Positions 23,623 to 42,562 of a DNA stretch of 64,000 nt are shown here, piece by piece (within the stretch, counting starts at the first letter, position 1; each line of letters opens with the position of its first letter). Under the pieces are notes generated by a model that did no database searches, was not told the DNA's origin, and saw only the letters and a list, made by a program, of their open reading frames with translations. The DNA comes from Candidatus Acidiferrales bacterium (GTDB taxonomy: Bacteria > Acidobacteriota > Terriglobia > Acidiferrales > UBA7541): assembly GCA_035934015.1 (NCBI GenBank), contig DASYYH010000023.1:186001-250000 (forward strand), in the 5' to 3' direction. Both the position numbers and the translations under genes were made by a program.

Positions 23623-24500
23623 AGGGATCCTTCCACTAGCGCAGCGTTGCGATAAACCATTTCGCCCGCGGGCTTGCGATAGAGAATGCAGTCGCCGCAC
23701 ACAGCCGATTCGAAATTCACCGGAATATTTGACAGCGATTCCGAATGACCCACAAACAGATAACCCCCGGGTTCGAGGTATTCATAGAAATGCTGGATCA
23801 GTGAATTGCGCCGCGCCTCCGAGAAATAAATCATCACGTTCATACAGAAAATAATGTCGAGCCGCCCCAAATAAACCGCCTGCGCCAGATTCATCGGCGC
23901 GAAGGACACCATGCGGCGAAGTTTCGGCCGTACGACAAATTCGCTGCCCGCAGCCGAGAAGTGCGTTTCCAGTTGCCGAGGCGACACACTTCCCAGGTTC
24001 CGGCGCGAGTAGACGCCGCTTTCCGCTTGTTTCAGCGCGTGCTTGCTGATGTCCGTGGCGAGGATTTCGATATTCCAGGCGTCGGCGAACATCAACGCGT
24101 CCGCGATCGTGATCGCGATGGAATAAGGTTCCTCGCCGGTGGCGCAGCCGGCGCTCCAAATGCGCAGCGTCCGCGGCGTCTCCCAAAACTTTTTCATATG
24201 CAATTCCGGCAGCACTTTTTTTTGCAACGCTTCGAAAACAGCGGGATAACGGAAGAAGGATGTTTCCTGCGTCAGCAGCCGCTCGATCAGCGCGTCGTAT
24301 TCGACGTTTGACCCGCGGATTTTCCGCAGAAGATCTGTGCCGTGCGGCAAATGTTTCGCGGCCATGTGCTCGCGGACGCGCGTCGAAAAAAATCGTTCGC
24401 GCGAGGCGTCAAACAGAATTCCAGAGCGGCGCTCGATGAGCGTGCGAATCTCATCGAGCTCGTATTCCGTAATGGCGGCGGTCGCTTTTTCTTTCATCAT
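23619..24500 (-). CDS. cheR: CheR chemoreceptor methyltransferase (cluster 1)
   Basis: 293 residues from the ATG at 24500, with GAGGCG upstream; a GTG two codons earlier is possible. CheR N-terminal helical domain, then the SAM-binding fold: LTQETSFFRYP, RIWSAGCATGEEPYSIA, ILATDISKHAL, DIIFCMNVMIYFSE and GYLFVGHSESL. No TPR extension. Methylates glutamates on the adjacent MCP with CheB as the opposing activity. GTGA-coupled to cheA. Confidence 0.95.
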   Translation of the reverse strand: MMKEKATAAITEYELDEIRTLIERRSGILFDASRERFFSTRVREHMAAKHLPHGTDLLRKIRGSNVEYDALIERLLTQETSFFRYPAVFEALQKKVLPELHMKKFWETPRTLRIWSAGCATGEEPYSIAITIADALMFADAWNIEILATDISKHALKQAESGVYSRRNLGSVSPRQLETHFSAAGSEFVVRPKLRRMVSFAPMNLAQAVYLGRLDIIFCMNVMIYFSEARRNSLIQHFYEYLEPGGYLFVGHSESLSNIPVNFESAVCGDCILYRKPAGEMVYRNAALVEGSL

Positions 24501-24561
24501 GGGCACGCCTCAGCGGGCGGCGCTCTGGCCGGCCGGTTGCTGAATTCCAGTCTCGTGTCCC

Positions 24562-26013
24562 TTAGCGGCGTGCACCGGCTGGGACCGGTTCCGGCCGTGC
24601 TTCTTCGATGGCAGCCTCCGAGCCATTTCTCGACGCATATCGGAACTGCGCCAGCGCCTCGTTCAATTGTTCGGAAAGTCGCGCCATGTTGCCGACCGTC
24701 GAAACGGTTTGCCGCGCGCCCTGCGAAGTTTGTCGCGTGATGCCTGAAATAATCTGCATCGCATTGGCCACGCCTTCTGTTCCGCGTACTTGCTGTTTCG
24801 ATGCCAGCGAGATTTCCTGAACCAGTTCGGCCGACTGGCGGACAACGCTCGAAATGGCTTCAAGCGCTTTTCCGGCCTGATCTGCAAGGCTCGCGCCGAC
24901 TTCCACTTCTTTCGTGCCCTCTTCCATCACGACAACCGCTTCGTTCGTCTCCGCCTGAATTGCCTTGATGAGCGCGGCGATGTCCTTCGTCGCGCTGCGT
25001 GAATGCTCGGCGAGCTTGCGGACTTCGTCGGCGACGACTGCGAAACCGCGTCCCGCTTCGCCTGCGCGCGCGGCCTCAATTGCTGCGTTAAGGGCCAGCA
25101 GGTTCGTCTGCTCGGTGATGTCGTTAATCACGTTGATGATTTCCGAAATTTCCAGCGACCGGTCGCCCAGCGATTTGATTTTCTTTGCCGTCGCCTGCAC
25201 CGATGCTCGAATGCGCTGCATGCCTTCGAGCGTATCGCGCACGGCGCGGTTGCCCTGTTCGGCTGCGTCCAGAGCGCGTCGTGCCGCTTCTGCGCTGGCC
25301 TCGGCGTTGTTCGACACTTGCTTCATCGACACCGTCAGCTCCTCCACGGCCGACGACGTATTCGTGATTTCCTGATCCTGTTGCGTTGCGCCGGTGGTCA
25401 TTTCATCGGCAGCCATCAAAATCTGGTTCGCGCTGGTGCTTACGTCGATAGCCGCCTTGCGGACGCGCTCGATGAGCTTGCTGAAATTATCGAGCATCAA
25501 GTTGACCGAATCCGTTACGTTGCCGAGCGCATCGTTGGTTACTCTTCCGCGGATCGTCAAATCGCCGCGCCCGACTTGGTTAATCAGGTTGAGCAAATCG
25601 GTGATGCTGCGCTGCAAGGATTCGGAAGCTTCCTGACTTACCGAAGAGCGCGCTAGCTTCGACGCGCTACGGTTCAGGTTTTCGGCGATATATCCGAATT
25701 CGTCGGTCGCGGAAATATCGGCCTTCGCGCCCTTATCTCCCGCGGCCAGCCGTTCGGAAAAGCTCGCCAGTTCCGTCAGTGGCGTGATCACGCGCTTTGG
25801 CAGCAGCATCACGTGAACCAAAAACGTGACGATGACCAGAGCTCCCGCCCCCAGCAAACTCCCCGAGGCGCCGCTTGGCAACGCACCGAAATTCGAAATG
25901 GATTGCCCGTTGGCGGCCGCTCCGGCATGGAAAGCCAGCCCCAGGACGGTAGCAAGCGCGGCCACATCCCACAGGATCAACCCCCAGATGGTCGTGCTCA
26001 GACGCGATTTCAT
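24562..26013 (-). CDS. Methyl-accepting chemotaxis protein with minimal external loop (cluster 1)
   Basis: 483 residues, ATG at 26013 behind a strong GGAGGATG site. Two membrane helices (about 9-31 and 52-74) are separated by only about 20 residues, so there is no periplasmic ligand domain. HAMP-like sequence follows ([19 protein letters not shown]) with a second HAMP-like segment near residues 140-195. The signalling hairpin carries the tip motif [20 protein letters not shown] and [11 protein letters not shown]. It may sense membrane state or use partner proteins rather than a bound ligand. Confidence 0.92.
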
Positions 26014-26089: not shown

Positions 26090-26665
26090 TCATATCACCG
26101 GAACCGGAAAAACCTCGAGCAACTTCGGCAAATCCAAAACCAGAGCAAGGCGGTCGTCGTGCCGCAACATTCCGCGGCAGTGCGGCACTTCGCTCGGCAT
26201 CTGGTCAATCAAAGAGTCATCTGTTGCCGTGTACGTCCCGATCACTTCATCAGCCGCGATGCCAAGCCGCAAGCTCGTCGGGTGCGTTTCATCGCGCAGC
26301 GCCGCCACGACCACGTGACGCGGCAAAAGGCCCGGGCGCCGTCCTTCCGTGAACGCGATATCCATCAACGGAACAATCGATCCACGCAAATTGAACACGC
26401 CCATCAGAAACGCAGGCCCCAGCGGTATCCGTGTCACCGGAGGCCAATCGACCACTTCCTCGATTGCCAGCACCGAAAGACAGAAGCGTTCGCGCCCTGC
26501 GCGAAACACGCAATACTGACTCTCTGGCGACTGGTTCTCGGCCAGTCCATCGCCTTCGAATGGCTCGAGCGTGTCGGCGAGGCCCTGCCCTTCAGCCATT
26601 TCCGGGCCGATGGCTGTTAGCTCGCCGGAGTCGAATCCGTGCTCGTTCTTGTATTCGTCACGCAT
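26090..26665 (-). CDS. cheW: CheW coupling protein (cluster 1)
   Basis: 191 residues from the ATG at 26665, which overlaps the cheY stop by one base (TGATG). Acidic N-terminal extension of about 45 residues, then a canonical CheW domain: QYCVFRAGRERFCLSVLAIE, GVFNLRGSIVPLMDI with the LRG turn, and LGIAADEVIGTY. It bridges the MCP and CheA. This is the most canonical of the three CheW-like proteins in this operon. Confidence 0.9.
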   Translation of the reverse strand: MRDEYKNEHGFDSGELTAIGPEMAEGQGLADTLEPFEGDGLAENQSPESQYCVFRAGRERFCLSVLAIEEVVDWPPVTRIPLGPAFLMGVFNLRGSIVPLMDIAFTEGRRPGLLPRHVVVAALRDETHPTSLRLGIAADEVIGTYTATDDSLIDQMPSEVPHCRGMLRHDDRLALVLDLPKLLEVFPVPVI

Positions 26666-27027
26666 CAAGCGAATCTCCGCACGGTTTCCAAAAGCTCCTC
26701 GGGTGTGAATGGCTTGGCGATGTACGCATCTGCGCCTTGCTGCTGTCCCCAGAATTTGTCGCTCGTTGTATTCTTCGAACTCACCAGAATCACGGGAATG
26801 CTCCCGAAATCGGCGCTTCCTTTAAGGTCACGGCACACCTGAAACCCATTTCGCTCCGGCATCACCACGTCGAGCAGAATCACACCAGGATGTTCCGTGC
26901 TGATCGTCTCTTCGGTCCGCCGCGGATCGCTCAGCCCCACTGCCGAATAGCCACCCTGTTCGAGAATCCCCTGCATCATTTTCAGGGCTGCGGCCGAGTC
27001 ATCTATCACCAGCACCTTCTTCAACAC
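26665..27027 (-). CDS. cheY: CheY-type single-domain response regulator (cluster 1)
   Basis: 120 residues from a GTG at 27027 with GGGAGG 5 nt upstream. Complete receiver: Asp9-Asp10, phospho-acceptor Asp53 (VILLDVVMPERNG), beta4 Ser (VSSKNT) and beta5 Lys in AKPFTPEE. No output domain. First gene of the minus-strand chemosensory operon, about 23 nt after a predicted sigma-54 transcription start. Likely phosphorylated by the neighbouring CheA. Confidence 0.9.
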   Translation of the reverse strand: MLKKVLVIDDSAAALKMMQGILEQGGYSAVGLSDPRRTEETISTEHPGVILLDVVMPERNGFQVCRDLKGSADFGSIPVILVSSKNTTSDKFWGQQQGADAYIAKPFTPEELLETVRRFA

Positions 27028-27059: not shown

Positions 27060-27077
27060 TTGCACGAGCAAAGCCAA
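27060..27077 (-). promoter_or_regulatory. Sigma-54 (-24/-12) promoter of chemosensory operon 1
   Basis: Minus strand reads TTGGCTTTGCTCGTGCAA, with the invariant GG and GC separated by exactly 10 nt (GC at plus 27062-27063, CC at 27074-27075). Predicted start near 27050, 23 nt before the cheY GTG, with the cheY ribosome site in between. TGAGAC motifs lie about 130-170 bp upstream, inside the end of the preceding gene. Confidence 0.65.
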
Positions 27078-27158: not shown

Positions 27159-27845
27159 CTAACGTCCGGGAATTCGTCCTGAGACAACCTCTGCCGTCTC
27201 ATCTTGAGATTGTTTCTCAGCCGCGCCAATCTCACTCGCTAGCGATGAGAATCTCTCCATGATCTGACTCAGCCGCAGGCCCATCGCCCGAATTGTCCGA
27301 ATTTGCTCGCACCCTTGCTTGGTGACGGGCTCAGCGGCTAGGAGTAGCAGGTCCGCGTTGCCGACGAGTGAAGTCAGTGTGTCGCTGACAATGTGACTCA
27401 TCTCCAGCATGTACCGTCCCAACGTAGCTTCCGTTCCGCGCGTGGCCGCAGCGCGCTCCGCTTGTCGTGCGCGTGCGTCCGCGTCGAGGCGTCGCAGTAC
27501 CTCTTTCGAAACCAGCATCAGCGTGTCCAGCCATCCGTCTCGAAGCTGTATGTGAAGAGCTTCGGAGTGCATCCGATAGAAAGAATCCTTATCGTTCGCA
27601 TCGCTGCAAATGCACGCCTCAACTCCGGCGCTTTCCAGGCCGCGGAGCAGGGGCTCGAGCGCACCCTCTCGCACCGGTCCAAGGATCGCGAATCGGTAAT
27701 CTTCAAACATCGCGGCCTCTCCCACATCGCTCGACACTTGCGTGATCGCTCGCGCAGGAAGCCGGTGGTCCGCGCGCCAGCGGGCCGCCACAGCGTGCGC
27801 GAATTCCGGGTCGTCTGTGAGCACGAGAACATTGGATTGCTGCAC
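27159..27845 (-). CDS. Pseudo-receiver plus orphan HisKA-like (DHp) protein
   Basis: 228 residues from a GTG at 27845, chosen because GAGGAA lies 6-7 nt upstream and the previous gene stops 16 nt before; a TTG at 27881 is the alternative. Residues about 1-120 look like a degenerate receiver (NVLVLTDDPEFAHAVAARW; YRFAILGPVREG) without the phospho-acceptor Asp. Residues about 140-205 resemble a HisKA dimerisation domain, with a His in EMSHIVSDTLTSLVGNADLL placed as in HisKA box H. No ATPase domain follows. It could be a phosphotransfer or scaffold protein for the che clusters. Novel-looking architecture. Confidence 0.65.
   Translation of the reverse strand: MQQSNVLVLTDDPEFAHAVAARWRADHRLPARAITQVSSDVGEAAMFEDYRFAILGPVREGALEPLLRGLESAGVEACICSDANDKDSFYRMHSEALHIQLRDGWLDTLMLVSKEVLRRLDADARARQAERAAATRGTEATLGRYMLEMSHIVSDTLTSLVGNADLLLLAAEPVTKQGCEQIRTIRAMGLRLSQIMERFSSLASEIGAAEKQSQDETAEVVSGRIPGR
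27179..27219. promoter_or_regulatory. TGAGAC operator cluster upstream of promoter 27060-27077
   Basis: CTGAGACAA (27179-27187), CCGTCTCAT (27194-27202) and the inverted repeat TGAGA-N5-TCTCA (27205-27219) fall 130-170 bp upstream of the predicted sigma-54 start near 27050. CTGAGACAA is identical to the copy at 34316-34324. They lie inside the 3' end of the preceding coding sequence. Confidence 0.5.
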
Positions 27846-27861
27846 TTGTGATTCCTCGACT

Positions 27862-29631
27862 TTAGTTCTGCGCTTCTTCAATCGCTGAAAGCAGCCGCCG
27901 CGCGCTGATTCCCAGATTCACTGCTGCTTCCGTATTCTTGGTTCGCTGCGCCTGATCGACTTTCGCTTGCAAATAGCCCATTTCTTCCCGGCCAAGCGCA
28001 ATCGCGGCGCTTACCTTTGCCGAATCTCCCGTGCGCTTCTTTTCTTCGCGTCCCAGAGCCACGAGCGCGCGAGCAGCCACGGCCCGCCGAAGATCTTCAG
28101 AGAGCTGGCCGCCGTCGCTCACGAACGCGTTTACTTCCCATGCCGAAAGCAAAATCTTCGCGTCGCCAATCGTGATTGTGCTCATCGAGCGTCCCCGTGA
28201 AGGCGGCGCTTCGATCAGTTGTTCCCAGATCGATTCCAGGCATGCTTCGAGTTCTGTCGATGGCACATTTCGATTGCCGGGAGAGGGTGCCTTGCTCTCG
28301 CCCGCCGGCTTCTTGCTTTCCGCTGTAGGAGGTGTCGTGTCGGCGGCTTTTGTGCCTGATGCAACCGTGCTGGACTGCTTTGCCGGTGCGCTCATTTGTG
28401 TCTTCGGCGCGGCGGTTGTTTCCGGTTTTTCTGGTGCCACAACAGGTTTTTTCGCCGCATTCGAGGCGGAGGGAACCTGCGCGCTCATGGGAGTGACTTT
28501 TGCCGTGGTCGGCCGTCGTTCAGAAGCTTGCTGCTTCGGTATAGCGGCATCAGAGGCTTTCGTCGTAGCGCTTTGTTCGTCTTTTGTTGCGGGCTTCGGC
28601 GCTGCCGCTTTTTCGCTTGCCGTGCTGGCGTCTGCAGCCACCTTACCCTCGACGCTTCTGGCAGTGATCGTTCCGATGGCGGGCATTTTTATTTCTGCAG
28701 GCGGAATCCCCAGCGCGCGCTCCACCGCTGCGCGAATCGCTAGCAGTTGCTCGAATGTCTTGTTTGCCGAATTCTCTGCATAGTCCGAGGAAATCGGCTG
28801 CCGCCACGAAAGTGAAATCTCTCGAAGGTTTTGGATCGGTTCCTGCGCTGTCAGTCCCGCAGAGCGGCAATCCACCGTTGAAATGCCCCGGCGTTCGAGC
28901 TCCGTCAAGCCTTCCCGTATCGCGCGAAGGTCCGCATGCAGCAATCGGAAAAAAGCGCGTCGCAACAGGAAGTTGAATCGCGTGAACGCCACCAACGCTG
29001 CCGGGTCATAGAACATGAACCCTGATGCATCTTTCAGTTCGCGCCCCTTTTCCAATAGTTTCGCGGCAAAGACCTCGCGCAACCCCTGGCACTGCTTTGT
29101 CACTTCCAGTACTTGATCCAGTGGCGCACACCATTCCAGTTCGGTCGAATCGGCGTCGCCGAGAACGTTACGCAATACCTGCGCGACGTCTCCCAGCGTG
29201 ATCTCGCACGAATACAAATCCTCCGGAGCGCAAAGTGCAAAATAGGTCGCTAGCAGTAGGTCGATATTGTCGCGATCCGTCGGAGATTTTTCCGGCCGTC
29301 GCAGCAGTCGCCAGATCAATGCGCGCAGGCTGTCCGGTTCGATCTCTTTGATCGAGTGTAGAAGCTGCCGGAGCTGATTGGTCTTGACGCATCCGTCCAT
29401 TTCGTCCAGCCACTGCGTGATCTTGGCGAAAAGGTCGTTTGCCGGGCAGGCCGCTGGGAGTACGGAATTGTTTGCCGGCGGAATGCCTATATGGAAATGC
29501 GTCGTTAGATAGAAATAGAGCGGATAGACGAGGCGCGCCTCGAGCCACGCGGCGGCGATGGCTTCGGCCTTTTCGCTAATCGACCGCGCGTCGGGTTTTG
29601 GTGGCGCAGATTTATTGCTCATGCCGCTCAT
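27862..29631 (-). CDS. Large protein of unknown function in the signalling island
   Basis: 589 residues from the ATG at 29631 (ATGA overlap with the PilZ-like gene). Three parts can be seen. Residues about 15-310 are helical and aromatic-rich (EARLVYPLYFYLTTHFHIG; LIWRLLRRPEK; FTRFNFLLRRAFFRLLHADL). About 320-450 is a low-complexity Ala/Pro/Lys/Thr/Ser linker. The last 135 residues form a helical domain (LEACLESIWEQLIEAPPSRG ... LLSAWEVNAFVSDGG). No signal peptide, membrane helix or catalytic motif. I do not recognise the family. Its position suggests a chemosensory accessory or effector. Confidence 0.7.
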   Translation of the reverse strand: MSGMSNKSAPPKPDARSISEKAEAIAAAWLEARLVYPLYFYLTTHFHIGIPPANNSVLPAACPANDLFAKITQWLDEMDGCVKTNQLRQLLHSIKEIEPDSLRALIWRLLRRPEKSPTDRDNIDLLLATYFALCAPEDLYSCEITLGDVAQVLRNVLGDADSTELEWCAPLDQVLEVTKQCQGLREVFAAKLLEKGRELKDASGFMFYDPAALVAFTRFNFLLRRAFFRLLHADLRAIREGLTELERRGISTVDCRSAGLTAQEPIQNLREISLSWRQPISSDYAENSANKTFEQLLAIRAAVERALGIPPAEIKMPAIGTITARSVEGKVAADASTASEKAAAPKPATKDEQSATTKASDAAIPKQQASERRPTTAKVTPMSAQVPSASNAAKKPVVAPEKPETTAAPKTQMSAPAKQSSTVASGTKAADTTPPTAESKKPAGESKAPSPGNRNVPSTELEACLESIWEQLIEAPPSRGRSMSTITIGDAKILLSAWEVNAFVSDGGQLSEDLRRAVAARALVALGREEKKRTGDSAKVSAAIALGREEMGYLQAKVDQAQRTKNTEAAVNLGISARRLLSAIEEAQN

Positions 29632-30032
29632 CGAATAATCCAATTCGGAATTTTTTCCGAAAATCGCACCGCCACTGCGCGTCTTCCAAGTTCGAAATGC
29701 ACGGCCACAACCGAAGCTTCTGCCTTCAAGGAACCGTCGGAGTTTTCGATTTTCACGCGGTCCGCAAATTCAAGAGGCAGCTTGGACGCGAAGAGTGCTT
29801 CATTCGCCGTGCCAAATTCGATCAGCGTGCTTTCCCTGACGCCTCCTCCTGCCGCGCGCAACGCCGTTATCTCAATTGGCAGTCGCATGAGAACCGCTCC
29901 GGGAAACAACTCAGCCAGCCTTTTCACGACTGATCCTGTGGAAAGAGGCTTCGCTTCAGCAATTTCGTGTTTCACAAATCCCTCTCGGCAGGCGCCGGTC
30001 CGCGCCATTCGCATGAGCACACGGAGAGACAC
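29628..30032 (-). CDS. Small PilZ-like protein
   Basis: 134 residues from a GTG at 30032 with GGAAG 5 nt upstream; an ATG at 30014 is the alternative. The C-terminal about 90 residues have the beta-barrel pattern and end of a PilZ domain (STLIEFGTANEALFASKLPL, then VVAVHFELGRRAVAVRF), but the RxxxR and D/NxSxxG c-di-GMP motifs are not recognisable, so ligand binding is doubtful. First gene of a three-gene operon with a predicted sigma-54 promoter only about 13 nt upstream of the GTG. Confidence 0.6.
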   Translation of the reverse strand: MSLRVLMRMARTGACREGFVKHEIAEAKPLSTGSVVKRLAELFPGAVLMRLPIEITALRAAGGGVRESTLIEFGTANEALFASKLPLEFADRVKIENSDGSLKAEASVVAVHFELGRRAVAVRFSEKIPNWIIR

Positions 30033-30055: not shown

Positions 30056-30071
30056 TGCAAGACCAGAACCA
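30056..30071 (-). promoter_or_regulatory. Sigma-54 (-24/-12) promoter of the PilZ-like operon
   Basis: Minus strand reads TGGTTCTGGTCTTGCA, with GG and GC exactly 10 nt apart and a TTGCA -12 element. Compare TGGTATGAGCCTTGCA at 34431. Predicted start at 30045, 13 nt before the GTG of the PilZ-like gene. TGAGAC motifs lie 106-159 bp upstream. Confidence 0.72.
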
Positions 30072-30150
30072 AACAGGAGGGCTTGTCCCAAAAGCTAACG
30101 TGCAGCAAGCACGGGAATTACGAGCGCGTCAAAATTCACAAAATACCTGA

Positions 30151-30204
30151 CCGTCTCACCCTGCGACGAATCCGTCTCACAATCCTCGCTATTTCCGTGA
30201 GACG
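30151..30204. promoter_or_regulatory. GTGAGACGG operator cluster between the PilZ-like operon and the sigma-54 activator gene
   Basis: CCGTCTCAC occurs at 30151-30159 and again at 30172-30180, a spacing of 21 bp (two helical turns). The inverse GTGAGACG is at 30197-30204. They are 106-159 bp upstream of the predicted sigma-54 start at 30045 and just downstream of the NtrC-like gene. Same motif as at 34285-34293. Confidence 0.6.
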
Positions 30205-31680: not shown

Positions 31681-34146
31681 CTATTTCGCCGCCTCGCCCG
31701 CTGTCGTCATAGCCGCGCTTTGCGCTGTCGGCAGCCGCACAAAAAAAGTGCAGCCATCGCCCTCCGAATTATTGGTGCACGAAACTTCCCCGTTGTGTTC
31801 CCGCACAATGCCATAGCAAATGCTCAAGCCCAGCCCTGTGCCCTTGCCGAGCTCCTTCGTCGTATAAAACGGTTCAAAGATTCGCGCCATATCCGAAATG
31901 CCGGTTCCGTTGTCGCGAATCGCCACTTCTACAAATTCTTCTTTCTCGCTTGTGACAATTTCGATCTTTCCCGCACGCCGCGCTTCCTGCACGGCGTCAT
32001 AGGCATTGTTGAGAATGTTGAGAAACACTTGTTGAAGTTGATGCGCATCGCCAAAAACTCGCGGCACGTCCGCGCCGTATTTCTCCGCGACCTCCATCCC
32101 ATCTCCCGCCGATCCGTACGTGCGAAGCTGTACGACCTGCCTCAATATCGCGTGGACGTCGAGCGGCTCGCGGCGCGCAGGCATCTGCCGCGCGAACTGC
32201 AGCAAATTCTGCACGATTTCTTTCGTGCGCTCTGCCTCCTGGAGCACGATGCGCAGTTCCTCTTTCGCCTCCACTGGCACCGCGTTGTTCTCCAGTAGCA
32301 GGTCCGCATAGCCCACGATTGCTGCCAGCGGATTATTGATTTCATGCGCTACGCCCGAGACCAGTTGACCGAGTGCCGCCATTTTTTCGGCGTGCCGGAG
32401 CTGCGCTTGCAACACAGCGGCATCGGTGATATCCGTCATCACCACGACGATGCTGCTCACGTGTCCTTGCTCATCGCGGATTGGGCTCAGGCTGATCGAG
32501 AATTGTCCCGTGCTCCGATTCCCGCGCCGCACGGGCAGTTCGAGGTTTTCTGGCGTAAATCCTTCGAGTGTGCTTTCAAACGCCTTCTCAAATTTCGTCC
32601 GGCGATCGCGCGGAATAAATTCCGCAAGCGTCTTTCCCAGCAAATCTCCCTGGCTGTATCCCGATTCGTAGGTTTTCCGGTTCGCGTAGCTCACCAGGCC
32701 GGCCGTGTCGAGCACAAGAATCATGCTCTGCGTATGGTTCAGAATCTTCGTGTTGAAATCCCGTTCCCGCTGCAGTTGCGCTTGGTACGTCCTCTGCTCG
32801 GTGATGTCCTTCAGGATATGGATCGTCCGCGAGCCTTCTTCTGAGCCGGCTCCGATTCGCGAAGTCGAAATCAAATATGCGCGTGTTCCAGCGCTCACAA
32901 CGGACTCATCGCTTGCGCTGCTCGACTCGCTGCAAAATGGACATGCTCGGCTTCGCGCGCTCGTGACAATGGAATTCAGTGCGCGCGTGCTCATGCCTAC
33001 AAGCTCCGAAGGCCGTGCTCCAAGTGCTTCCGCCAGCGATCGATTCAATCGCACGATCCGATTCGCAGGATCGTGCACGACAATCAAATCCGTGATCGCG
33101 TCGAAGTCTTCCACCCACTGCCGCTTCGACTGTTCAATCCGTGAAAAAAGGCGCGAATTCTCCAGCGCCACCGAGGCATGGCTCGCCAGCGCCTGAATCA
33201 AGTTGTCGTCAGCTGCGGAAAACTCGCGCTCCCGGTTCACCAGGCAGAGGATGCCTAGCAAATCCCCTTCCCGGCCAGTCAGCCGCACCATGCAGACATC
33301 GCGCCATTCCAGGGCGTCAGCCACTTCTTCCCCTAGCAGTTCTCTTGCGTTTCCAGTGAGTAGCAAGCTCGGATGTTCCGCTGCAAAATTTGTCAACGCA
33401 TCATCCAGAGGCGCTCTGGCTTCCAGATGAGGTTTGCCATCCACGTGATGCGCGTAAACAATTTCCAGCCGCGCGCCCCGCGTCAGCGCAAGGATGGCTG
33501 CCTGCGCCCCAAGCATTTTTCTTGCATTCGACGTAAACCGCCCGACAAACTCCGGCAGGCGCAGCGATGGCTTCAATTCGACCGCAAGGTCCATCAGGTC
33601 CTGCGCGCGACGTTCCGACGAATCCTCCTGCTCCTCGTTTTTGAAAAATAACTTCGCGAGAGCGCCGGCATAGGCTTCGGCTTGATTCACAGTTTGCGGA
33701 TCAAATACTTTCGCGCCGTTTCTTCGCGAAAGGACAAGAATCGAAGCGCGCCGTTCGCCCAGCTCCATGGGAAGGACGATATACCTTTGGCCTTCAATGA
33801 GTTTTTTCTCCGACTTGCCAAGCTTTAATTCAGAATTTCTTGCAATGGCCCGGCCCTTGGCGACCGCTCGATGAAAAATAGGGGCTTCTGACAATGGCGC
33901 TTTCCAGCCTCGTAGCAATTTCGACGGCCCTTCTGAATGGACCAAACAAAGCTCTGCATTTCCTTTGTCGATATCCCAGAAGCTCGCGCCATCCAGTTGA
34001 AAGAATGATTTCGCCAATCGGCAAGCAGCTCTGGGGAACGCCTCAGGAGAGCATTCCGAAGCGTGCGTTTGAAGTTGTGCCAGAAGGCCATCAAGGCCCT
34101 CTCTACGGCGTGTGTAAGAGGTTCGTTGCTTCGATCGCGAAGGCAT
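31681..34146 (-). CDS. Cytosolic multi-sensor histidine kinase (NtrB-like), GAF-GAF-PAS-PAS-HisKA-HATPase
   Basis: 821 residues, ATG at 34146. No membrane segment, so cytosolic. Two GAF-like domains (about 20-165 and 190-335), a first PAS (about 345-455, with a CPFC pair inside that may bind metal or act as redox pair) and a second PAS (about 465-580), then HisKA with His601 in VAHEINNPLAAIVGYAD and HATPase_c with NNAYDA, DNGTGI and GTGLGLS boxes. Sensor type and output HisKA resemble NtrB kinases, which partner sigma-54 regulators. Cotranscribed with the regulator gene. Signal unknown; GAF/PAS could bind nucleotides, haem or small ligands. Confidence 0.92.
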   Translation of the reverse strand: MPSRSKQRTSYTRRREGLDGLLAQLQTHASECSPEAFPRAACRLAKSFFQLDGASFWDIDKGNAELCLVHSEGPSKLLRGWKAPLSEAPIFHRAVAKGRAIARNSELKLGKSEKKLIEGQRYIVLPMELGERRASILVLSRRNGAKVFDPQTVNQAEAYAGALAKLFFKNEEQEDSSERRAQDLMDLAVELKPSLRLPEFVGRFTSNARKMLGAQAAILALTRGARLEIVYAHHVDGKPHLEARAPLDDALTNFAAEHPSLLLTGNARELLGEEVADALEWRDVCMVRLTGREGDLLGILCLVNREREFSAADDNLIQALASHASVALENSRLFSRIEQSKRQWVEDFDAITDLIVVHDPANRIVRLNRSLAEALGARPSELVGMSTRALNSIVTSARSRACPFCSESSSASDESVVSAGTRAYLISTSRIGAGSEEGSRTIHILKDITEQRTYQAQLQRERDFNTKILNHTQSMILVLDTAGLVSYANRKTYESGYSQGDLLGKTLAEFIPRDRRTKFEKAFESTLEGFTPENLELPVRRGNRSTGQFSISLSPIRDEQGHVSSIVVVMTDITDAAVLQAQLRHAEKMAALGQLVSGVAHEINNPLAAIVGYADLLLENNAVPVEAKEELRIVLQEAERTKEIVQNLLQFARQMPARREPLDVHAILRQVVQLRTYGSAGDGMEVAEKYGADVPRVFGDAHQLQQVFLNILNNAYDAVQEARRAGKIEIVTSEKEEFVEVAIRDNGTGISDMARIFEPFYTTKELGKGTGLGLSICYGIVREHNGEVSCTNNSEGDGCTFFVRLPTAQSAAMTTAGEAAK

Positions 34147-34277
34147 GGAGGTTTGTGGGTCTGAGCGAACAATTTCAAATTGAGAAACAATCCAACGTTA
34201 GCCCTAATTCTCATTTTGAGTCAACCCGAGTCATAGCTTCGGTTGCTGAATCGTGCATGACCCTATCCTAGAACGAC

Positions 34278-34324
34278 TCTCATTGTGAGACGGCCCTATT
34301 GCCTCCAGCGGGTTCCTGAGACAA
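34278..34324. promoter_or_regulatory. TGAGAC operator cluster upstream of the TonB-C/MCP operon
   Basis: A palindrome TCTCA-TTG-TGAGA (34278-34290) continues as GTGAGACGG (34285-34293), and CTGAGACAA follows at 34316-34324. They are 133-179 bp upstream of the predicted start at 34457, a normal position for an NtrC-type enhancer. Confidence 0.6.
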
Positions 34325-34430: not shown

Positions 34431-34446
34431 TGGTATGAGCCTTGCA
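34431..34446 (+). promoter_or_regulatory. Sigma-54 (-24/-12) promoter of chemosensory operon 2
   Basis: TGGTATGAGCCTTGCA, with GG at 34432-34433 and GC at 34444-34445 (10-nt spacing), matches the consensus at nearly every defined position. Predicted start at 34457, 38 nt before the GTG of the TonB-C gene. Confidence 0.78.
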
Positions 34447-34494: not shown

Positions 34495-34845
34495 GTGAAC
34501 ATTCGATCGAAGATTATGCGTTCCGCTCTCGTAGCCCTTGCAGGTTCTGTCCTCATCTTGCCGCCGGCAGCCATGAGTCAGGATGCAGCCACCAAGCGCA
34601 AGGTGAGCCACAAAGTTGTACCTGAGTTCCCAGAGCTCGCCAGGCAACTGAATATCACCGGCAAAGTGAAGCTCGCGCTTGTTGTTGCTCCAGACGGCCA
34701 CGTGAAGAGCACTCAGGTTTTGGGCGGAAGCCCGCTGTTGGCTCAATCAGCCAGCAAAGCAGCGAAGGGCTGGAAATTCGAGCCTGGTCCAAAGGAGACC
34801 ACCGAAATCATCGAATTCGACTTCACGCAACAGGATCAGCAATAG
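34495..34845 (+). CDS. Secreted TonB C-terminal-domain protein
   Basis: 116 residues from a GTG at 34495 with AAGGAG 8 nt upstream. A signal peptide (about residues 9-29, ALVALAGSVLILPPAAMSQ) is followed directly by a TonB C-terminal domain (VVPEFPELARQLNITGKVKL, VVAPDGHVKSTQVLGGSPLL, AAKGWKFEPGP). There is no Pro-rich spacer and the N-terminal helix ends in a cleavable-looking site, so it is probably periplasmic rather than a classical energy transducer. First gene of the sigma-54-driven chemosensory operon 2, 72 bp before the MCP gene. It could be a signal-binding or envelope partner of the receptor. Confidence 0.8.
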   Translation: MNIRSKIMRSALVALAGSVLILPPAAMSQDAATKRKVSHKVVPEFPELARQLNITGKVKLALVVAPDGHVKSTQVLGGSPLLAQSASKAAKGWKFEPGPKETTEIIEFDFTQQDQQ

Positions 34846-34917: not shown

Positions 34918-36927
34918 ATGACGATTGGAAAGAAACTCTATATTGGTTTCGGCTCGATTCTGGCGCTCTTGCTGACTGTGTTTCTCGTCAACTTGACGGC
35001 CTTGCTGCGTGAGCATTCCGTCCGGGATAAGGCTGCGAGCACGCTTCAAAGTCTTCAAACCATCGAGAAGGTTCGCTATCAAATGATGCAGGTTCGCCTT
35101 GACCTCCGCAACTTCCTCTTGAGTGGTGACCCGCGCATTGAAGGCACTACAAACAAGCAGGAAAGCGACCTGATGGATTATCTTCAGGCTCAGCGCACGA
35201 ATTCTTCTGATGAAATCCTCCGAAACGCTCTGACCGAAGTGAACAACAGCGAAGCGGACTGGTACGAAAATTTTGCCAAGCCGCTAATCGAAAAAAGGCA
35301 CCAGGTCGATTCCGGCGACGCAACCGTCTCCGATCTTCAAGTCTTTTATCTCGAAAAAAAGCCTGGCTCTTGGATCAACGGCGACGTCAATATACTCGAT
35401 CAAGCTGACGCGCAGATTCACAAGTCCTATGACGATGCCAATCAATCCGCTACTCGTGCCAGCAATGTAAGCATCTACGGCGGCCTTTTCGGAATGTTCC
35501 TTGCCATCTTTTTGGGCATCGGCATCGCCTATTACACCGCCAAGTCCATCAATCAGCCGCTCAGTCATTTGATCGAGGTCGCGCACGAAATCGGCAGTGC
35601 TGGTGATCTCGATCAGAATATTGATATTCACCGCAATGATGAGGTCGGCCGCCTCGCCGATAACTTCCGCTCCATGGTCGAACACTTGAAGCGCATGGCC
35701 GGTGTTTCCGCTTCTGTCGCCGAAGGCGATCTCGACGTCGAAATCGAACCGCTCTCCAAACGCGATACCTTGGCCTCTGCATTTTCCCGCATGGCTCAGG
35801 GCCTCCGCGACATAGTCGGTCAAGTTCGTGATAGCGCTTCGCAGGTTTCCGCCGGTGCCAGCCAGATGGCCGCGGCTTCCGAGGAGTCCGCGAAAGTCAG
35901 CGTTCAGGCTGCGGCTGCTATTGATGAAGTGACCAGCACGATGCATGAAATGAGCATCAACGTGCAGAATGTCGTCAAAAACACGCAGGTTCAGGCTTCC
36001 AGCGTCGCCGAAACTTCCGCATCAATCGAACAGATGGTCGCTTCGATTCAGCGCGTCGCCGATACGGCCAAGATCCTTCTCGACATTTGCCATCGTTCTC
36101 GCGTCGAAGTCGAAACCGGCATCACGACTATGGAGAAGGCCACAGACGGCTTGAATCGCACCAGCGCCTCCATTCAATCCTCTTCGGACATCATCGGCGT
36201 CCTTGGCAAGCGTGCCGACGATATCGGCAAGATCATCGAAGTAATAGACGATTTGGCCGAGCAAACCAATCTGCTCGCGCTCAACGCCGCCATCGAAGCC
36301 GCTCGCGCCGGCGAACACGGCCTCGGTTTTGCCGTTGTCGCCGACGAAGTCCGCAAGCTCGCCGAAAAATCCACGCAATCCACAAAAGAAATCGCCGACC
36401 TCATCCAGGGGATTCAGAAGGAAGCGCGCGAGGCCGTCGACAACATGGCCAAGAGTACGCAGATGGTTCAGGACGGTCTGGTGCTCGGCCTCGATCTTAA
36501 TAAGGCTTTCGGCAAGATTTCCAACGTCGTCAGCGAAGTTTATAAATTTGCGCAGGAAATTGGTGCCGCCACCAACGAGCAGTCCAGCGGTTCCTCGCAG
36601 ATTGCCAAGGCAACTTCGCGTCTCACGGAAATCACTCAGGAGATCAACTCTTCCGTCGAGGAGCAGGCTTCTGGTGCGCAGGGTGTCGTCCGCGCCATGG
36701 AAAAAATGCGCGAGCTCGTGCAGCAGTCCACTTCAAGCTCGACTGAACTCGCCGCTACCGCCGAGCAGATGTCCAAGCTTTCGCGTATCTTGCTTGAAAG
36801 CATGGACCGCTTCCGTATCGAGCGCGAATCCCGCGAGAACGGCAAACATCACTCTTCTTGGCGGAACAAGAAAGACCGCGACGCTCACTCCGAAGATTCC
36901 CATCGTCGCGAGCTGGTTCGGGTCTGA
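34918..36927 (+). CDS. Methyl-accepting chemotaxis protein with large periplasmic domain (cluster 2)
   Basis: 669 residues, ATG at 34918 with GGGGGAGG upstream. TM1 about 8-28, a helical periplasmic domain about 30-185 resembling the four-helix-bundle/CHASE3 sensor class, TM2 about 188-208 (FGMFLAIFLGIGIAYYTA), HAMP about 210-265, then a long signalling domain with the tip [22 protein letters not shown]-terminal tail is basic and His/Ser-rich, without an NWETF-type CheR tether. First MCP of cluster 2. Confidence 0.92.
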   Translation: MTIGKKLYIGFGSILALLLTVFLVNLTALLREHSVRDKAASTLQSLQTIEKVRYQMMQVRLDLRNFLLSGDPRIEGTTNKQESDLMDYLQAQRTNSSDEILRNALTEVNNSEADWYENFAKPLIEKRHQVDSGDATVSDLQVFYLEKKPGSWINGDVNILDQADAQIHKSYDDANQSATRASNVSIYGGLFGMFLAIFLGIGIAYYTAKSINQPLSHLIEVAHEIGSAGDLDQNIDIHRNDEVGRLADNFRSMVEHLKRMAGVSASVAEGDLDVEIEPLSKRDTLASAFSRMAQGLRDIVGQVRDSASQVSAGASQMAAASEESAKVSVQAAAAIDEVTSTMHEMSINVQNVVKNTQVQASSVAETSASIEQMVASIQRVADTAKILLDICHRSRVEVETGITTMEKATDGLNRTSASIQSSSDIIGVLGKRADDIGKIIEVIDDLAEQTNLLALNAAIEAARAGEHGLGFAVVADEVRKLAEKSTQSTKEIADLIQGIQKEAREAVDNMAKSTQMVQDGLVLGLDLNKAFGKISNVVSEVYKFAQEIGAATNEQSSGSSQIAKATSRLTEITQEINSSVEEQASGAQGVVRAMEKMRELVQQSTSSSTELAATAEQMSKLSRILLESMDRFRIERESRENGKHHSSWRNKKDRDAHSEDSHRRELVRV

Positions 36928-36939
36928 CCGGAGCCGCAC

Positions 36940-37410
36940 ATGGCAAAAGACGTCCAGCTTGTTGGTCTCCGCATCGGACGCGAAACGTACGGCGTTCCTA
37001 TCGCCATCGTGCGTGAAATCGTCCGCGTCCCGGAAATCACCGCCGTACCCAACGCTCAGGAATTTGTTGAAGGCGTCATCAATCTTCGCGGAAAGATAAT
37101 TTCGGTCGTGGATCTTCGCAAGCGCTTCGGCGGCACCACTTCCGATAACAGTAAGAAAAATAGAGTCGTCGTCGTGGAACTCGATAACCGCACCGTCGGC
37201 CTGATCGTGAACGCCGCTTCGGAAGTCTTGAAAATCCCGCCTTCCGAAATCGAACCTCCAGGCTCCGTTTTCCCCGAGGGAGAAATCGATTATGTGACCG
37301 GCGTCGGCAAACTCGGCGGCCGTCTCGTCATTCTTCTCGACTTAAACAAAGTCCTGAAGACGAATGAATTGCGGCATCTCGATGAGCTGGTGCCGGCGGC
37401 CTCGGTCTGA
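36940..37410 (+). CDS. cheW: CheW coupling protein (cluster 2)
   Basis: 156 residues, ATG at 36940, 12 bp after the MCP stop. Canonical CheW: QLVGLRIGRETYGVPIAIVR, GVINLRGKIISVVDLRKRFG with the LRG turn, and VGLIVNAASEVLKI. Couples the receptor at 34918-36927 with the CheA at 38357-40477. Confidence 0.93.
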   Translation: MAKDVQLVGLRIGRETYGVPIAIVREIVRVPEITAVPNAQEFVEGVINLRGKIISVVDLRKRFGGTTSDNSKKNRVVVVELDNRTVGLIVNAASEVLKIPPSEIEPPGSVFPEGEIDYVTGVGKLGGRLVILLDLNKVLKTNELRHLDELVPAASV

Positions 37411-37454: not shown

Positions 37455-38360
37455 ATGGCGACTTTCACTGTTCCTGTTCAACTGACTGACCCTGAGCTCA
37501 AGCTCCTGCAGACGCTCATCTATCAGGAATGCGGCATGTGTTTCGATGAGCATCGCGTTCATTTTCTCTGTGACCGCCTCCAGCGCCGTCTGAAAGCCTG
37601 TAATCTCGATTCGTTCTACAGCTATTACCGCTTGCTCACCAGCCACGAAGGCAAAAAAGAACTCTCCGCCCTGCTTGAGAATCTCACGGTCAACGAAACC
37701 AGTTTTTTTCGCAATGTTCCGCAGTTGGAATTATTTTCGAAAGTCGTTCTCGAAAATCTCTTGCACCGCAAGCAGGAGCGCCGCGATTTTTCCCTTCGCT
37801 TCTGGAGCGCCGGCTGCTCCACGGGGCAGGAACCGTACACGATGGCGATCCAGATTTGCGACGCGCTCGCCTACTATTACTTGCGCAATCCACTGCCTTT
37901 CGACATGCCCTCGCCGAAGCCGCTCGTGCCGCCGCCGTGGAAAGTCGAAATCCTCGCCTCCGACATCAGCTATTCCGCGCTGCTTCAGGCCGAGCAAGGC
38001 CTTTACACCGAAAATCAGATGGAGTCGGTTGATTACACCTGCCGCCTGCGCTACTTCGAAAAAATGGGCGACAAATACGCCATCAAGCCCGCGCTGAAAA
38101 ACATCGTTCAGTTCGACTTTCACAATCTTAAGGCCGAATTCTTGCCGCAGCGCAACGACATTATTTTCTGCCGCAACGTCATGATTTATTTCGATGAGGC
38201 CGAACAGAAGCGCCTGATCGACAAGTTTTATCGTTGCTTGAATCCCGATGGCTATCTTTTCGTCGGCCACGCCGAGAGCCTCTTCGGCCTGACCACGAAA
38301 TTCAAAATGATTCACCAGAATAATGGCACTGCGTATCAGCGAATCGAGGGCCACGCGTGA
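37455..38360 (+). CDS. cheR: CheR methyltransferase (cluster 2)
   Basis: 301 residues, ATG at 37455 with GAAGGG upstream. CheR N-domain plus SAM domain: LTVNETSFFRNVP, RFWSAGCSTGQEPYTMA, ILASDISYSAL, DIIFCRNVMIYFDE, GYLFVGHAESL. It has an insertion after the SAM motif (about 30 residues with YYYLRNPLPFDMPSPKP). Distinct from the cluster 1 CheR, so not a recent duplicate. Its TGA overlaps the cheA GTG. Confidence 0.94.
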   Translation: MATFTVPVQLTDPELKLLQTLIYQECGMCFDEHRVHFLCDRLQRRLKACNLDSFYSYYRLLTSHEGKKELSALLENLTVNETSFFRNVPQLELFSKVVLENLLHRKQERRDFSLRFWSAGCSTGQEPYTMAIQICDALAYYYLRNPLPFDMPSPKPLVPPPWKVEILASDISYSALLQAEQGLYTENQMESVDYTCRLRYFEKMGDKYAIKPALKNIVQFDFHNLKAEFLPQRNDIIFCRNVMIYFDEAEQKRLIDKFYRCLNPDGYLFVGHAESLFGLTTKFKMIHQNNGTAYQRIEGHA

Positions 38361-40477
38361 ACTTCTTTCCCGACGAACGCGCCGCCGAACTCCGCGAGCT
38401 TTTCTTTGAAAGCGCACAGGAGTTGCTTCAGGAGCTCAACGAAGCCGGGCTGGAGCTCGAAGCTCGTCCGGACGACGCCGAAATCGTCCGCCGTGTTCGC
38501 CGCGTTGTGCACACGCTCAAGGGCGACTCCGCCGCGTGCGGTTTTCAGGAGCTGAGCTCTCTGGCGCATGAGATGGAAGATGCGCTCGCTCCGCAGGCCG
38601 TCCGCGGCGCAAAAAATTCTCTCGTCGAAGTCATCTTCACCGCTGCTGACACATTCCAGGCCATGCTCGCCGCGTATCGCAAATCGCTCCCGCCTCCCAC
38701 GGGCGATGCGCTTCGCGAACACATTCGCCAGATCGCATCTACGCCGGCGAAACGGCCTGCCGCGCCTGCCCCCGCCGAAGCGTTTTCTCCAAAGTTCGAC
38801 TGGAATGCCTCCCAGCGCGACCGCATCTCGAACGCCTTGGGGCACGGCGAGTGCGTTTTCAATATCGCCCTGCAAATCGATCCTTCTAGCGGCATGCGCT
38901 CCGCCGCATTTCAGCTCATTCGAAATGTTCTGGAAGGTGTCGGTTCCATCCTCGCGATCCATCCATCGGATGTCGACTCAGCGGAATTCGCCGCGCACGT
39001 CGAGGCTGCTCTCGCGACTGAACATTCCAAGAGCGCTTTGGCGAAAAAGTGCCGGATCCCGTCCGTCGTCGCTGACATCACCGTGCATCAAGTCAGCGAA
39101 GCGCAGGAACCTTCGCAGGATTTGCTGGATGTGCTTTTGCAGGCCGAAGCGCACGCTTCCGGCGCTGCCGTGCCGCTCCACAAAGCTCGCGCTCCGCAAG
39201 CTCGTCCGGTTCCCGCGCCGGAGTCCGAGGAATCGCGCCGTGAGGCCCGCGCCTCCGCTACTCTAGCCGCCGCGCAGAACACTCTGCGCGTTGATGCCAC
39301 GCGCATCGACACGGTTCTCAATCTCATCGGCGAACTCATCATCGGCAAATCCATGCTGCATCGCACCATCATCGAATTCGACAAGCATCACGCCAAGGAT
39401 CCCTTGCGCAGCCGTTTCGCCGACGCACTCGCATTTCAATCCCGCGTCCTCGAAGACCTGCAGCGCTCCGTGATGAAAATCCGCATGGTTCCCGTCGAAC
39501 AGCTCTTTCGCCGTTTCCCGCGCATCGTCCGCGATGTCTCTCTAAACTGCGGACGCGACGTCGCTCTCGAAATCGCCGGCGAGCATACTGACCTCGACAA
39601 GGGCATTCTCGACGCGCTGGCCGAGCCGATCGCTCATCTGGTTCGCAACGCCGTCGATCACGGAATTGAAACTCCGGAAGAGCGCGAAGCCAAGGGCAAG
39701 CCGAAAAGCGGTGTTATTCGCCTCAACGCTTATCATCAGGGCAATCAAGTCGTCATCGAAGTTTCCGACGATGGCCGCGGCATCGACCGCAAAAAGCTCG
39801 TCAGCCGCGCCGTCGAGCGCGGTTCCATCTCTGCCGCCGAGGCAAGCAAATTCACCGAAGAAGATGCCACGCGGTTAATTTTCCAGCCTGGCCTCAGCAC
39901 CGCGGATGCGGTGACGGAAGTTTCTGGCCGCGGCGTCGGCATGGACGCCGTGATCGGCGTTCTCGAGCGATTGAAAGGTACCATTGAAACGGATTCCATC
40001 CCCGGCCAAGGCACCACGTTTCGCATCTTCGTGCCTCTTACGCTTGCGAGTATTCAGGCGCTTCTCTTCAAGGTCACTGGTCATCTTTATGCCGTACCGC
40101 TCGCCAACGTTGTCGAAATCACTCGCGTCGCCGGTTCGGAAATTCATCGCGTCGATGATTACGAAGTCATTCGCCTTCGCGATCAGTTGCTCACTCTGGT
40201 TCATCTCGACCGCCTCACTGCGCAGAACGCCAAAGTGGCCTCCAGCAAATCATTCGTCATTATTATTGGGGCGGGCGAAAAAAAGTTTGGTCTCATTGTG
40301 GATAGTTTGATGGGTGAAGAGGAATTGGTCATTAAGGCCCTCGACGATCGTCTGTCATCCTCGGACTTCGTCAGCGGCGCATCGATTCTTGGCGATGGCA
40401 CCGTCGTCTTGATTTTGAACATACCCGTCGTCGCCAGCCGGCTCGCTCGTTTGCCGGCATTGGGAGCGATCGCGTGA
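38357..40477 (+). CDS. cheA: CheA histidine kinase (cluster 2)
   Basis: 706 residues, GTG start overlapping cheR (GTGA). HPt at about 5-110 with His52 (RVVHTLKGDSAACG), a second small domain at about 165-255 that fits a P2-like CheY-binding fold, dimerisation domain (LRVDATRIDTVLNLIGELII), HATPase (HLVRNAVDHGIETP, VSDDGRGID, GRGVGMDAV) and a CheW-like regulatory domain. No receiver domain, unlike the cluster 1 CheA. Phosphorylates CheY and CheB of this operon. Confidence 0.94.
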   Translation: MNFFPDERAAELRELFFESAQELLQELNEAGLELEARPDDAEIVRRVRRVVHTLKGDSAACGFQELSSLAHEMEDALAPQAVRGAKNSLVEVIFTAADTFQAMLAAYRKSLPPPTGDALREHIRQIASTPAKRPAAPAPAEAFSPKFDWNASQRDRISNALGHGECVFNIALQIDPSSGMRSAAFQLIRNVLEGVGSILAIHPSDVDSAEFAAHVEAALATEHSKSALAKKCRIPSVVADITVHQVSEAQEPSQDLLDVLLQAEAHASGAAVPLHKARAPQARPVPAPESEESRREARASATLAAAQNTLRVDATRIDTVLNLIGELIIGKSMLHRTIIEFDKHHAKDPLRSRFADALAFQSRVLEDLQRSVMKIRMVPVEQLFRRFPRIVRDVSLNCGRDVALEIAGEHTDLDKGILDALAEPIAHLVRNAVDHGIETPEEREAKGKPKSGVIRLNAYHQGNQVVIEVSDDGRGIDRKKLVSRAVERGSISAAEASKFTEEDATRLIFQPGLSTADAVTEVSGRGVGMDAVIGVLERLKGTIETDSIPGQGTTFRIFVPLTLASIQALLFKVTGHLYAVPLANVVEITRVAGSEIHRVDDYEVIRLRDQLLTLVHLDRLTAQNAKVASSKSFVIIIGAGEKKFGLIVDSLMGEEELVIKALDDRLSSSDFVSGASILGDGTVVLILNIPVVASRLARLPALGAIA

Positions 40478-41577
40478 GCGAACCTATCCGTGTACTCGTT
40501 GTCGACGATTCGGCACTGATGCGCAAACTGATTCCGCAGATTTTGGAGCAGGATGGCTCGATCAAAGTGGTGGGCACTGCGATGGATGGTTCATTCGGCC
40601 TGAAAAAAATTGAAGAGCTCAAGCCCCAGGTCATTACCCTCGACCTCGAGATGCCCCGCATGAACGGTCTTGAGACCATGCGCGAGATCACCCGCCGCTT
40701 CCGCTTGCCCGTAATCGTCTTTAGCACGCATTCGCGCAATGGCGCTCGTGCCACATTAAAAGCCCTGTCTCTCGGTGCCTTTGATTTTGTCACCAAACCC
40801 AATGCCGCCTCCGCCGGCAACATACAGGAGATCGCTGAAGAGTTCGCCCTCAAGATCAAAGCCGCGGCCAAGGCCGGCTTCCCCAAAGTCATGATGGATG
40901 TTCTTCCGGCGCGCCCGAAAAGCACCATGCCGAAGGTCAATCGCTTTCGCCCGCCGACTCGTGTCATCGCCGTTGGTGTTTCCACCGGCGGGCCGAATGC
41001 GCTCGAATACATGCTCTCGCAAATTCCCGCGGATTTTTCGGGCTGCTTCCTCATCGCTCAGCATATGCCCGAAGGATTCACCGAAATGCTCGCTCGCCGC
41101 CTGGATGAATCGTCCATGATCAAAGTCCGCGAGGCTCGTTCGGGCGAACCTCTGATTGCCGGCCAGGCCTTGATCTGTCCGGGTAATCGCCACATTCACA
41201 TTCGCCGCGCCGCCACCGGCCACATTGTCGTGCTTTCGGAAACCGCGCGCGTCAATGGCCACCGTCCATCCGCCGATGTCTTATTTCGCTCCGTCGCCAA
41301 AGAATTTGGCTCTCAGGCCATCGCTCTTCTTATGACCGGCATGGGCGACGACGGCGTTGATGCCATTCGTCTTATCCGCGACGCGGGCGGCCTCACGCTG
41401 GCCCAGGATTCTGGTTCGTGTGTCGTCGATAGCATGCCACGCAGCGCCGTCGAACACGGCTACATTTCCCGCGTCATCAGTCTCGAGGCGTTGCCCAATT
41501 TCTTGTATGTCCAGTGTCCGGAATTGCAGGAAGAGAGCAGTGAAGAAAATTCTGTAACCCCGAGGCATCTGCAATAG
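40474..41577 (+). CDS. cheB: CheB methylesterase/deamidase (cluster 2)
   Basis: 367 residues, GTG start coupled to cheA. Receiver with Asp57 (QVITLDLEMPRMNG), linker, then the methylesterase triad STGGP (Ser), QHMP (His) and TGMGDDG (Asp). Adaptation enzyme for the cluster 2 MCP. Confidence 0.95.
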   Translation: MSEPIRVLVVDDSALMRKLIPQILEQDGSIKVVGTAMDGSFGLKKIEELKPQVITLDLEMPRMNGLETMREITRRFRLPVIVFSTHSRNGARATLKALSLGAFDFVTKPNAASAGNIQEIAEEFALKIKAAAKAGFPKVMMDVLPARPKSTMPKVNRFRPPTRVIAVGVSTGGPNALEYMLSQIPADFSGCFLIAQHMPEGFTEMLARRLDESSMIKVREARSGEPLIAGQALICPGNRHIHIRRAATGHIVVLSETARVNGHRPSADVLFRSVAKEFGSQAIALLMTGMGDDGVDAIRLIRDAGGLTLAQDSGSCVVDSMPRSAVEHGYISRVISLEALPNFLYVQCPELQEESSEENSVTPRHLQ

Positions 41578-41615: not shown

Positions 41616-42065
41616 ATGAAACCGTTTACGCCTTTGACTCGCAAGCAGAACAGCGGCCCCGTCCGCTATCTCGTGGTCGACGACTCCGTCTTCGCGCGAA
41701 AGAGTCTCGCCAAGATGATCGAATCCTTCGGCGGCGAACTGGCCGGCGAAGCCGGCGATGGCTGCACCGCCATCACCGAATATACTCGCACCAGCCCCGA
41801 TATTGTTCTGATGGATATCACCATGCCCCAGATGGAAGGCATTGAAGCCGTCGAGCGCATTGTTCGCCAGCATCCCGAGGCGCGCATCGTCATGGTTTCT
41901 TCCGTCGGCTATCAGGACAACATTCTCGCGGCGCTCCAAAAGGGCGCACGGCATTTCGTGCAGAAGCCCGTCAAGCCCGACGTGCTCTACGAAATCATCC
42001 GTTACGTCCTGAACGACGAAACCGCCGCGCAAACGCCGGCGACGGTCGGAGAGGCACGCTCATGA
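41616..42065 (+). CDS. cheY: CheY response regulator (cluster 2)
   Basis: 149 residues, ATG at 41616 behind GAGGAG. Single receiver with an N-terminal extension of about 16 residues: Asp22-Asp23, phospho-acceptor Asp67 (PDIVLMDITMPQMEG), VSSVG at beta4 and QKPVKPD at beta5. Followed by cheX with an ATGA overlap, so phosphatase and response regulator are made together. Confidence 0.92.
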   Translation: MKPFTPLTRKQNSGPVRYLVVDDSVFARKSLAKMIESFGGELAGEAGDGCTAITEYTRTSPDIVLMDITMPQMEGIEAVERIVRQHPEARIVMVSSVGYQDNILAALQKGARHFVQKPVKPDVLYEIIRYVLNDETAAQTPATVGEARS

Positions 42066-42562
42066 AAATGCAACTCATTCAGCCGTTCATCAGTGCGGCA
42101 GATTCCGTCCTCGCTCATGCGCTCGATGGCCCCACGAGAATCGGCGATCTGACCATGGAAGAAGACGGTTACCGCCAGAAGGGCGTCGCCGCGGTTATTT
42201 CCATCAACGGTGAAATCGAAGGCCGCGTTATTCTGGACATGGATTCAGCCGCCGCCGTCCGTGTCGCTTCCGCGCTCGCGGGTTGCGAAGTCGACGCCTC
42301 CGAGCAGGTCGTCCGCGAAACCGTCTGCGAACTCGCCAACATGGTCATCGGCAACGCCGTCACGCTGCTCAACGACCGCGGCTATCAATTCAAGGTTCAT
42401 CCGCCGGAAATTCGCTCAAACAAAGAAAACGTCCGCAGCACAGCCGAGACCGAAGCGATGGCCATGTATTTCGATACGCCCGCGGGGCGCATTTTCGTCA
42501 ACATCGCCATGCGCTACAGCGCGCAGCGCCGTTCCGATAAGGCTCCTGCTCTCACGAACTAG
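42062..42562 (+). CDS. cheX: CheX-type CheY-P phosphatase
   Basis: 166 residues. The CheC/CheX/FliY phosphatase helix is VRETVCELANMVIGNAV, containing the catalytic Glu and Asn pair (ExxN). The second half has IFVNIAMRYS as in CheX. No second phosphatase site is clear. Dephosphorylates CheY-P. Last gene of chemosensory operon 2. Confidence 0.85.
   Translation: MKMQLIQPFISAADSVLAHALDGPTRIGDLTMEEDGYRQKGVAAVISINGEIEGRVILDMDSAAAVRVASALAGCEVDASEQVVRETVCELANMVIGNAVTLLNDRGYQFKVHPPEIRSNKENVRSTAETEAMAMYFDTPAGRIFVNIAMRYSAQRRSDKAPALTN

Follow-up and report, generated by a model that had tools for sequence, protein, structure and literature searches.

Chemosensory systems with roles other than flagellar motility are widespread, and for few of them is the trigger known. 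In M. xanthus, the kinase CrdS and the NtrC regulator CrdA presumably adjoin the Che3 chemosensory cluster, and a kinase and an NtrC-type regulator adjoin a chemosensory cluster at the present locus in the same way. The NtrC-type regulator CrdA has been tied to Che3, with Che3 and CrdS setting CrdA phosphorylation and thereby acting on developmental genes (PMC3510030). The locus is like that system in pairing a histidine kinase and an NtrC-family regulator with chemosensory proteins whose role is not flagellar. It differs in that its regulator, as judged from the sequence, would control transcription of the chemosensory genes, and in its kinase, which carries GAF and PAS domains whereas CrdS has a periplasmic sensor with HAMP. 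The locus also resembles NtrB-NtrC: it has a kinase and a receiver-AAA+-Fis HTH regulator carrying GAFTGA, its -24/-12 promoters are preceded by dyad enhancers in pairs, and a candidate site for autoregulation lies at the promoter of the regulator itself. Unlike in NtrB-NtrC, the targets are chemosensory operons and the enhancer is GTCTCA-N3-TGAGAC, and no NCBIfam equivalog match reached its cut-off.

Sigma-54 control of che genes is already known and is not new. In V. cholerae, cheABWYZ are class II genes of FlrA and sigma-54 (PMC6504787), and in Geobacter sigma-54 sites have been predicted upstream of che clusters (PMC2577667). Given both precedents, the original prediction overstated the case in calling sigma-54 control of a che set unusual. 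As with FlrA and FlrB-FlrC of V. cholerae, sigma-54 and an enhancer-binding protein would control the che genes here, but the V. cholerae genes belong to a flagellar hierarchy. Like Geobacter, the present bacterium has several chemosensory clusters with -24/-12 sites predicted close upstream of the operons; the Geobacter sites, however, were predicted solely by score and no enhancer or activator was assigned to them, whereas here a conserved enhancer and an adjacent candidate activator were identified. Searches of open-licence papers turned up no dedicated three-promoter regulon over two chemosensory operons in Acidobacteriota.

In this soil Acidobacteriota bacterium, a two-component regulator encoded at the locus (Table 1) most likely activates both neighbouring chemosensory gene sets jointly, through three similar sigma-54 promoters. 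We assign a probability of about 0.87 to a local, dedicated sigma-54 regulon in which the kinase would act through the NtrC-type regulator on three promoters, P1, P2 and P3, by way of shared dyads.

Table 1. Features of the chemosensory locus and its predicted regulatory sites.
Feature	Position	Strand	Remarks
CheB, second chemosensory set (P3 operon)	19502..20614	-	
Hybrid CheA, P3 operon	20617..23700	-	two Hpt, CheW-like, receiver
CheR, second chemosensory set (P3 operon)	23619..24506	-	
MCP, second chemosensory set (P3 operon)	24562..26013	-	
CheW, second chemosensory set (P3 operon)	26090..26668	-	
Stand-alone receiver, first gene of P3 operon	26665..27027	-	
Third sigma-54 promoter P3, TTGGCTTTGCTCGTGCA	27061..27077	-	50 nt before receiver gene; conserved across family loci
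Conserved protein, P2 operon	27159..27881	-	no family above cut-off
P3 enhancer ATCTCAAGATGAGAC	27196..27210	-	centre 126 nt upstream of P3
Conserved protein, P2 operon	27862..29643	-	no family above cut-off
Small conserved protein, first gene of P2 operon	29628..30032	-	start codon uncertain
Second sigma-54 promoter P2, TTGGTTCTGGTCTTGCA	30056..30072	-	same place in family loci
P2 enhancer	30153..30179	-	GTCGCAGGGTGAGAC (30167-30153) and second TGAGAC (30179-30174), 21 nt apart
NtrC-family response regulator, candidate activator of P1, P2, P3	30235..31641	-	receiver, AAA+ with GAFTGA, Fis-type HTH
Histidine kinase	31681..34146	-	GAF, PAS, HisKA, HATPase; divergent from P1 operon; conserved in relatives
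Sigma-70-type promoter of kinase-regulator operon, TTGACT-N18-TAACGT	34195..34224	-	TTGACTCA-N3-TGAGA overlaps -35
P1 distal enhancer CTCTCATTGTGAGAC	34277..34291	.	dyad GTCTCA-N3-TGAGAC; centre 146 nt upstream of P1
P1 proximal enhancer half-site TGAGAC	34317..34322	+	31 nt from distal one, 115 nt from P1
Sigma-54 -24/-12 element P1	34431..34446	+	Y at 34430; conserved in 48/49 orthologous regions
TonB_C-domain small protein, first gene of P1 operon	34495..34845	+	PF03544, 5e-16
MCP, P1 operon	34918..36927	+	HAMP and MCPsignal
CheW, P1 operon	36940..37410	+	
CheR, P1 operon	37455..38360	+	
CheA, P1 operon	38357..40477	+	Hpt, P2, dimerisation, HATPase, CheW-like
CheB, P1 operon	40474..41577	+	
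CheY-like receiver, P1 operon	41616..42065	+	
CheX-type phosphatase, P1 operon	42062..42562	+	

The sigma-54-like -24/-12 element that was originally predicted at P1 is present as described: the sequence at 34431-34446 (+) is TGGTATGAGCCTTGCA, and with the C that precedes it at 34430 it reads CTGGTATG-N4-TTGCA with exact GG-N10-GC spacing. The 38 nt said to separate it from the first gene holds for the distance from the predicted transcription start (34457) to the GTG start codon at 34495, which has GGAG upstream, but not for the motif itself, from which the gap is 48 nt. Taken alone, the P1 motif is weak evidence. One-mismatch matches number 65 in the 64-kb window (the whole stretch of DNA analysed) against 51 expected, and TTGGCACTCGGATTGCA at 14311-14327 (+), inside an ABC-transporter gene, outscores P1 as a sigma-54 site. 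That match, probably due to chance, is a useful warning on motif scores; with it, and with genome counts close to those of a control, motif score alone was rejected as evidence.

The comparison set comprised 49 non-identical orthologous regions upstream of the TonB_C gene, with only one near-duplicate pair, and a site was counted if its score was at least 19 and it lay between -41 and -70 ahead of the first gene. Such an element occurs in 48 of the 49 regions versus 1.5 expected (largest count in 200 shuffle sets, 6). The TGG and GC columns of the alignment are kept in 48-49 of 49, whereas the columns on either side look nearly random, with no base in the 5' flank above about 27/49 in any column. 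Because the element is conserved across orthologous upstream regions, and not from its score, we regard P1 as a genuine sigma-54 promoter. The prediction that it would drive the eight-gene TonB_C-MCP-CheW-CheR-CheA-CheB-CheY-CheX operon is supported. In the sole exception (L045) the TonB_C gene is duplicated in tandem (L045:692-1442), and both copies stand between the MCP gene and the sigma-54 promoter; the element, at 603, and the enhancer pair, whose half-sites are at 448 and 479, are found ahead of the first copy. A relative from another family (L109) keeps the element and has the enhancer 127 nt upstream. Gene order at the locus is syntenic across the family, the MCP of the P1 operon has matches in numerous genomes of that family, and CheA relatives come from named Acidobacteriota MAGs, the closest being labelled Candidatus Acidiferrales.

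The genes of the P1 operon are separated by gaps of 72, 12, 44, -4, -4, 38 and -4 nt, and terminator-like sites inside the operon are no commoner than in shuffles. Beyond a hydrophobic N-terminal stretch and a TonB_C domain, the 116-aa product of its first gene contains little; it is kept in nearly all relatives.

Upstream of P1, TGAGAC half-sites number 149 against 11.8 expected and are found in 48/49 regions. Among dyads a gap of 3 nt alone is enriched (48/49 regions; other gaps at most 13), and half-sites outside dyads are variable. In most family members the dyad centres lie 125-127 and 156-158 nt from P1; here and in two relatives they lie at 115-116 and 146-147 nt, about one helical turn shorter, which is expected if the side of the helix that the sites occupy is important. 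Such conserved phasing offers a way to tell real sigma-54 sites from chance ones. With one mismatch or fewer, GTCTCA-N3-TGAGAC occurs only 7 times in the 3.37-Mb genome, and three of these are the P1, P2 and P3 enhancers. The four others (C3:87292, C8:101817, C23:262672 and C28:64872), set against 5 in a reversed control, are not taken as regulator targets, their count being close to the control and none having a clearly placed -24/-12 partner.

P2 is flanked by the regulator and an uncharacterised three-gene operon; it is farther from its first gene, the start codon of which is uncertain. In nearly all family loci its enhancer sites lie upstream at distances of 88-89 and 108-110 nt, and the P3 enhancer distance in family loci is 123-126 nt. 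Many P2 and P3 sites score below P1, with G for T in TTGC; the orthologous P2 site in L003 is the alternative TTGGCCGCAGGCGTGCT, and the P3-equivalent site in L106 is the second-ranked one. The three promoters, with their shared enhancers and phasing, are shown by conservation across the family. The original picture stands for its sigma-54 element and had missed the enhancer, the divergent NtrC-family candidate activator and two more sigma-54 promoters.

The regulator has Walker A, GAFTGA and a Fis-type HTH, all conserved as befits an activator, and the genome carries one rpoN, with an RpoN box. The recognition helix of the regulator is nearly invariant among orthologs, unlike that of most paralogs in the genome. 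At the kinase promoter, TTGACTCA-N3-TGAGA is invariant in 45/49 regions. With the -35 lying within this related dyad-like site, a bound regulator would cover the -35, which suggests negative autoregulation of the kinase-regulator operon.

Two other readings of the sites themselves may be weighed against sigma-54 control. If the motif at 34431 were a chance match and the operon were read from a sigma-70 promoter, the near-chance frequency of the bare motif genome-wide (590 matches versus 541 for the reversed control) would be accounted for, but this is scarcely credible given a position and bases conserved amid near-random flanks, enhancer phasing coupled to P1, and a search for sigma-70-like sites at the P1 operon that found none on the + strand. 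Only slightly less improbable is a role of the dyads as operators for some repressor that has nothing to do with sigma-54. The related site over the kinase -35 would fit a repressor. At P1-P3, however, the sites are always accompanied by a -24/-12 element and stand some 90-160 nt upstream, a distance too great for simple repression, most of them in pairs and in phase with the helix.

An activator encoded elsewhere is less easily set aside, but still unlikely. Under this reading P1-P3 would be sigma-54-dependent, with the adjacent pair controlling other genes, and candidates exist among the about 16 proteins of the genome with strong Sigma54_activat matches. In one relative (L026) the kinase-regulator pair is gone from beside the operon, yet P1 and its enhancers remain; that genome, however, has a regulator ortholog elsewhere, 72% identical. 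A transposase-like gene stands there (L026:3371-4363) where relatives carry the pair. Conversely, in L019 and L023 both chemosensory gene sets are retained, with no promoters or enhancers at either set; the closest regulator match in their genomes has 51% identity, compared with 70-83% in the genomes of L003, L005 and L026. Genomes without a close regulator ortholog are thus also without the sites. This co-absence, seen in two lineages and perhaps reflecting one event, is the best computational evidence that would tie the regulator to the sites, and dyads of this type in the present genome cluster around the adjacent regulator. In L019 (about 5580), a genome without a close regulator ortholog, TTGTCTCACCTTTGAGACAAG upstream of a receiver gene forms a nearly perfect dyad whose gap is 4 nt.

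In the local regulon that we favour, the divergent sensor kinase would phosphorylate the adjacent NtrC-type regulator in response to a signal, for which its GAF/PAS sensor is the place to look. We infer that the phosphorylated regulator would then bind the GTCTCA-N3-TGAGAC enhancers about 90-160 nt upstream of the three promoters and, through DNA looping and ATP hydrolysis, open sigma-54 polymerase at each. Transcription from P1 would yield TonB_C-MCP-CheWRABYX, from P2 the uncharacterised three-gene operon, and from P3 receiver-CheW-MCP-CheR-hybrid CheA-CheB. The kinase and regulator themselves would be made from the sigma-70 promoter, where binding over the -35 would give negative autoregulation. 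Promoters, enhancers and a likely activator can in this way be named at base resolution, and they are conserved across many uncultured Acidobacteriota. A more extended possibility, which we consider doubtful, is that one locus-restricted activator deploys both chemosensory systems while the Che kinases feed back on its phosphorylation; if true, the circuit would be self-contained, with chemosensing controlling its own expression in a bacterium without flagella.

A search of the genome, which is 98.6% complete, found neither Flagellin_N nor FHIPEP (the FlhA-type export gate), and flagellar chemotaxis was therefore rejected. The comparison originally drawn with the sigma-28 or sigma-70 norm of flagellar systems is for this reason inapplicable. 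Flagellin is present in 27 of 121 relatives, and most relatives bearing the operon are without it. Since flagellar genes were not found, the output of the chemosensory systems is probably pili, surface behaviour or another cellular function. The hybrid multi-Hpt CheA of the P3 operon hints at a Pil-Chp-like, pilus-linked system, which is suggestive only; T2SSE family ATPase matches are present in the genome and could be PilB/PilT or secretion ATPases.

In the P2 operon, the protein encoded at 29628-30032 (-) appeared PilZ-like by eye, an identity that was rejected as Pfam and PDB profile searches gave no match, and the 593-aa protein encoded at 27862-29643 (-) has a low-complexity Ala/Lys/Pro-rich stretch. 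About 1 kb downstream of the second chemosensory operon, genes at 16038-18469 (-) encode PilZ, receiver and receiver-DUF4388 proteins.
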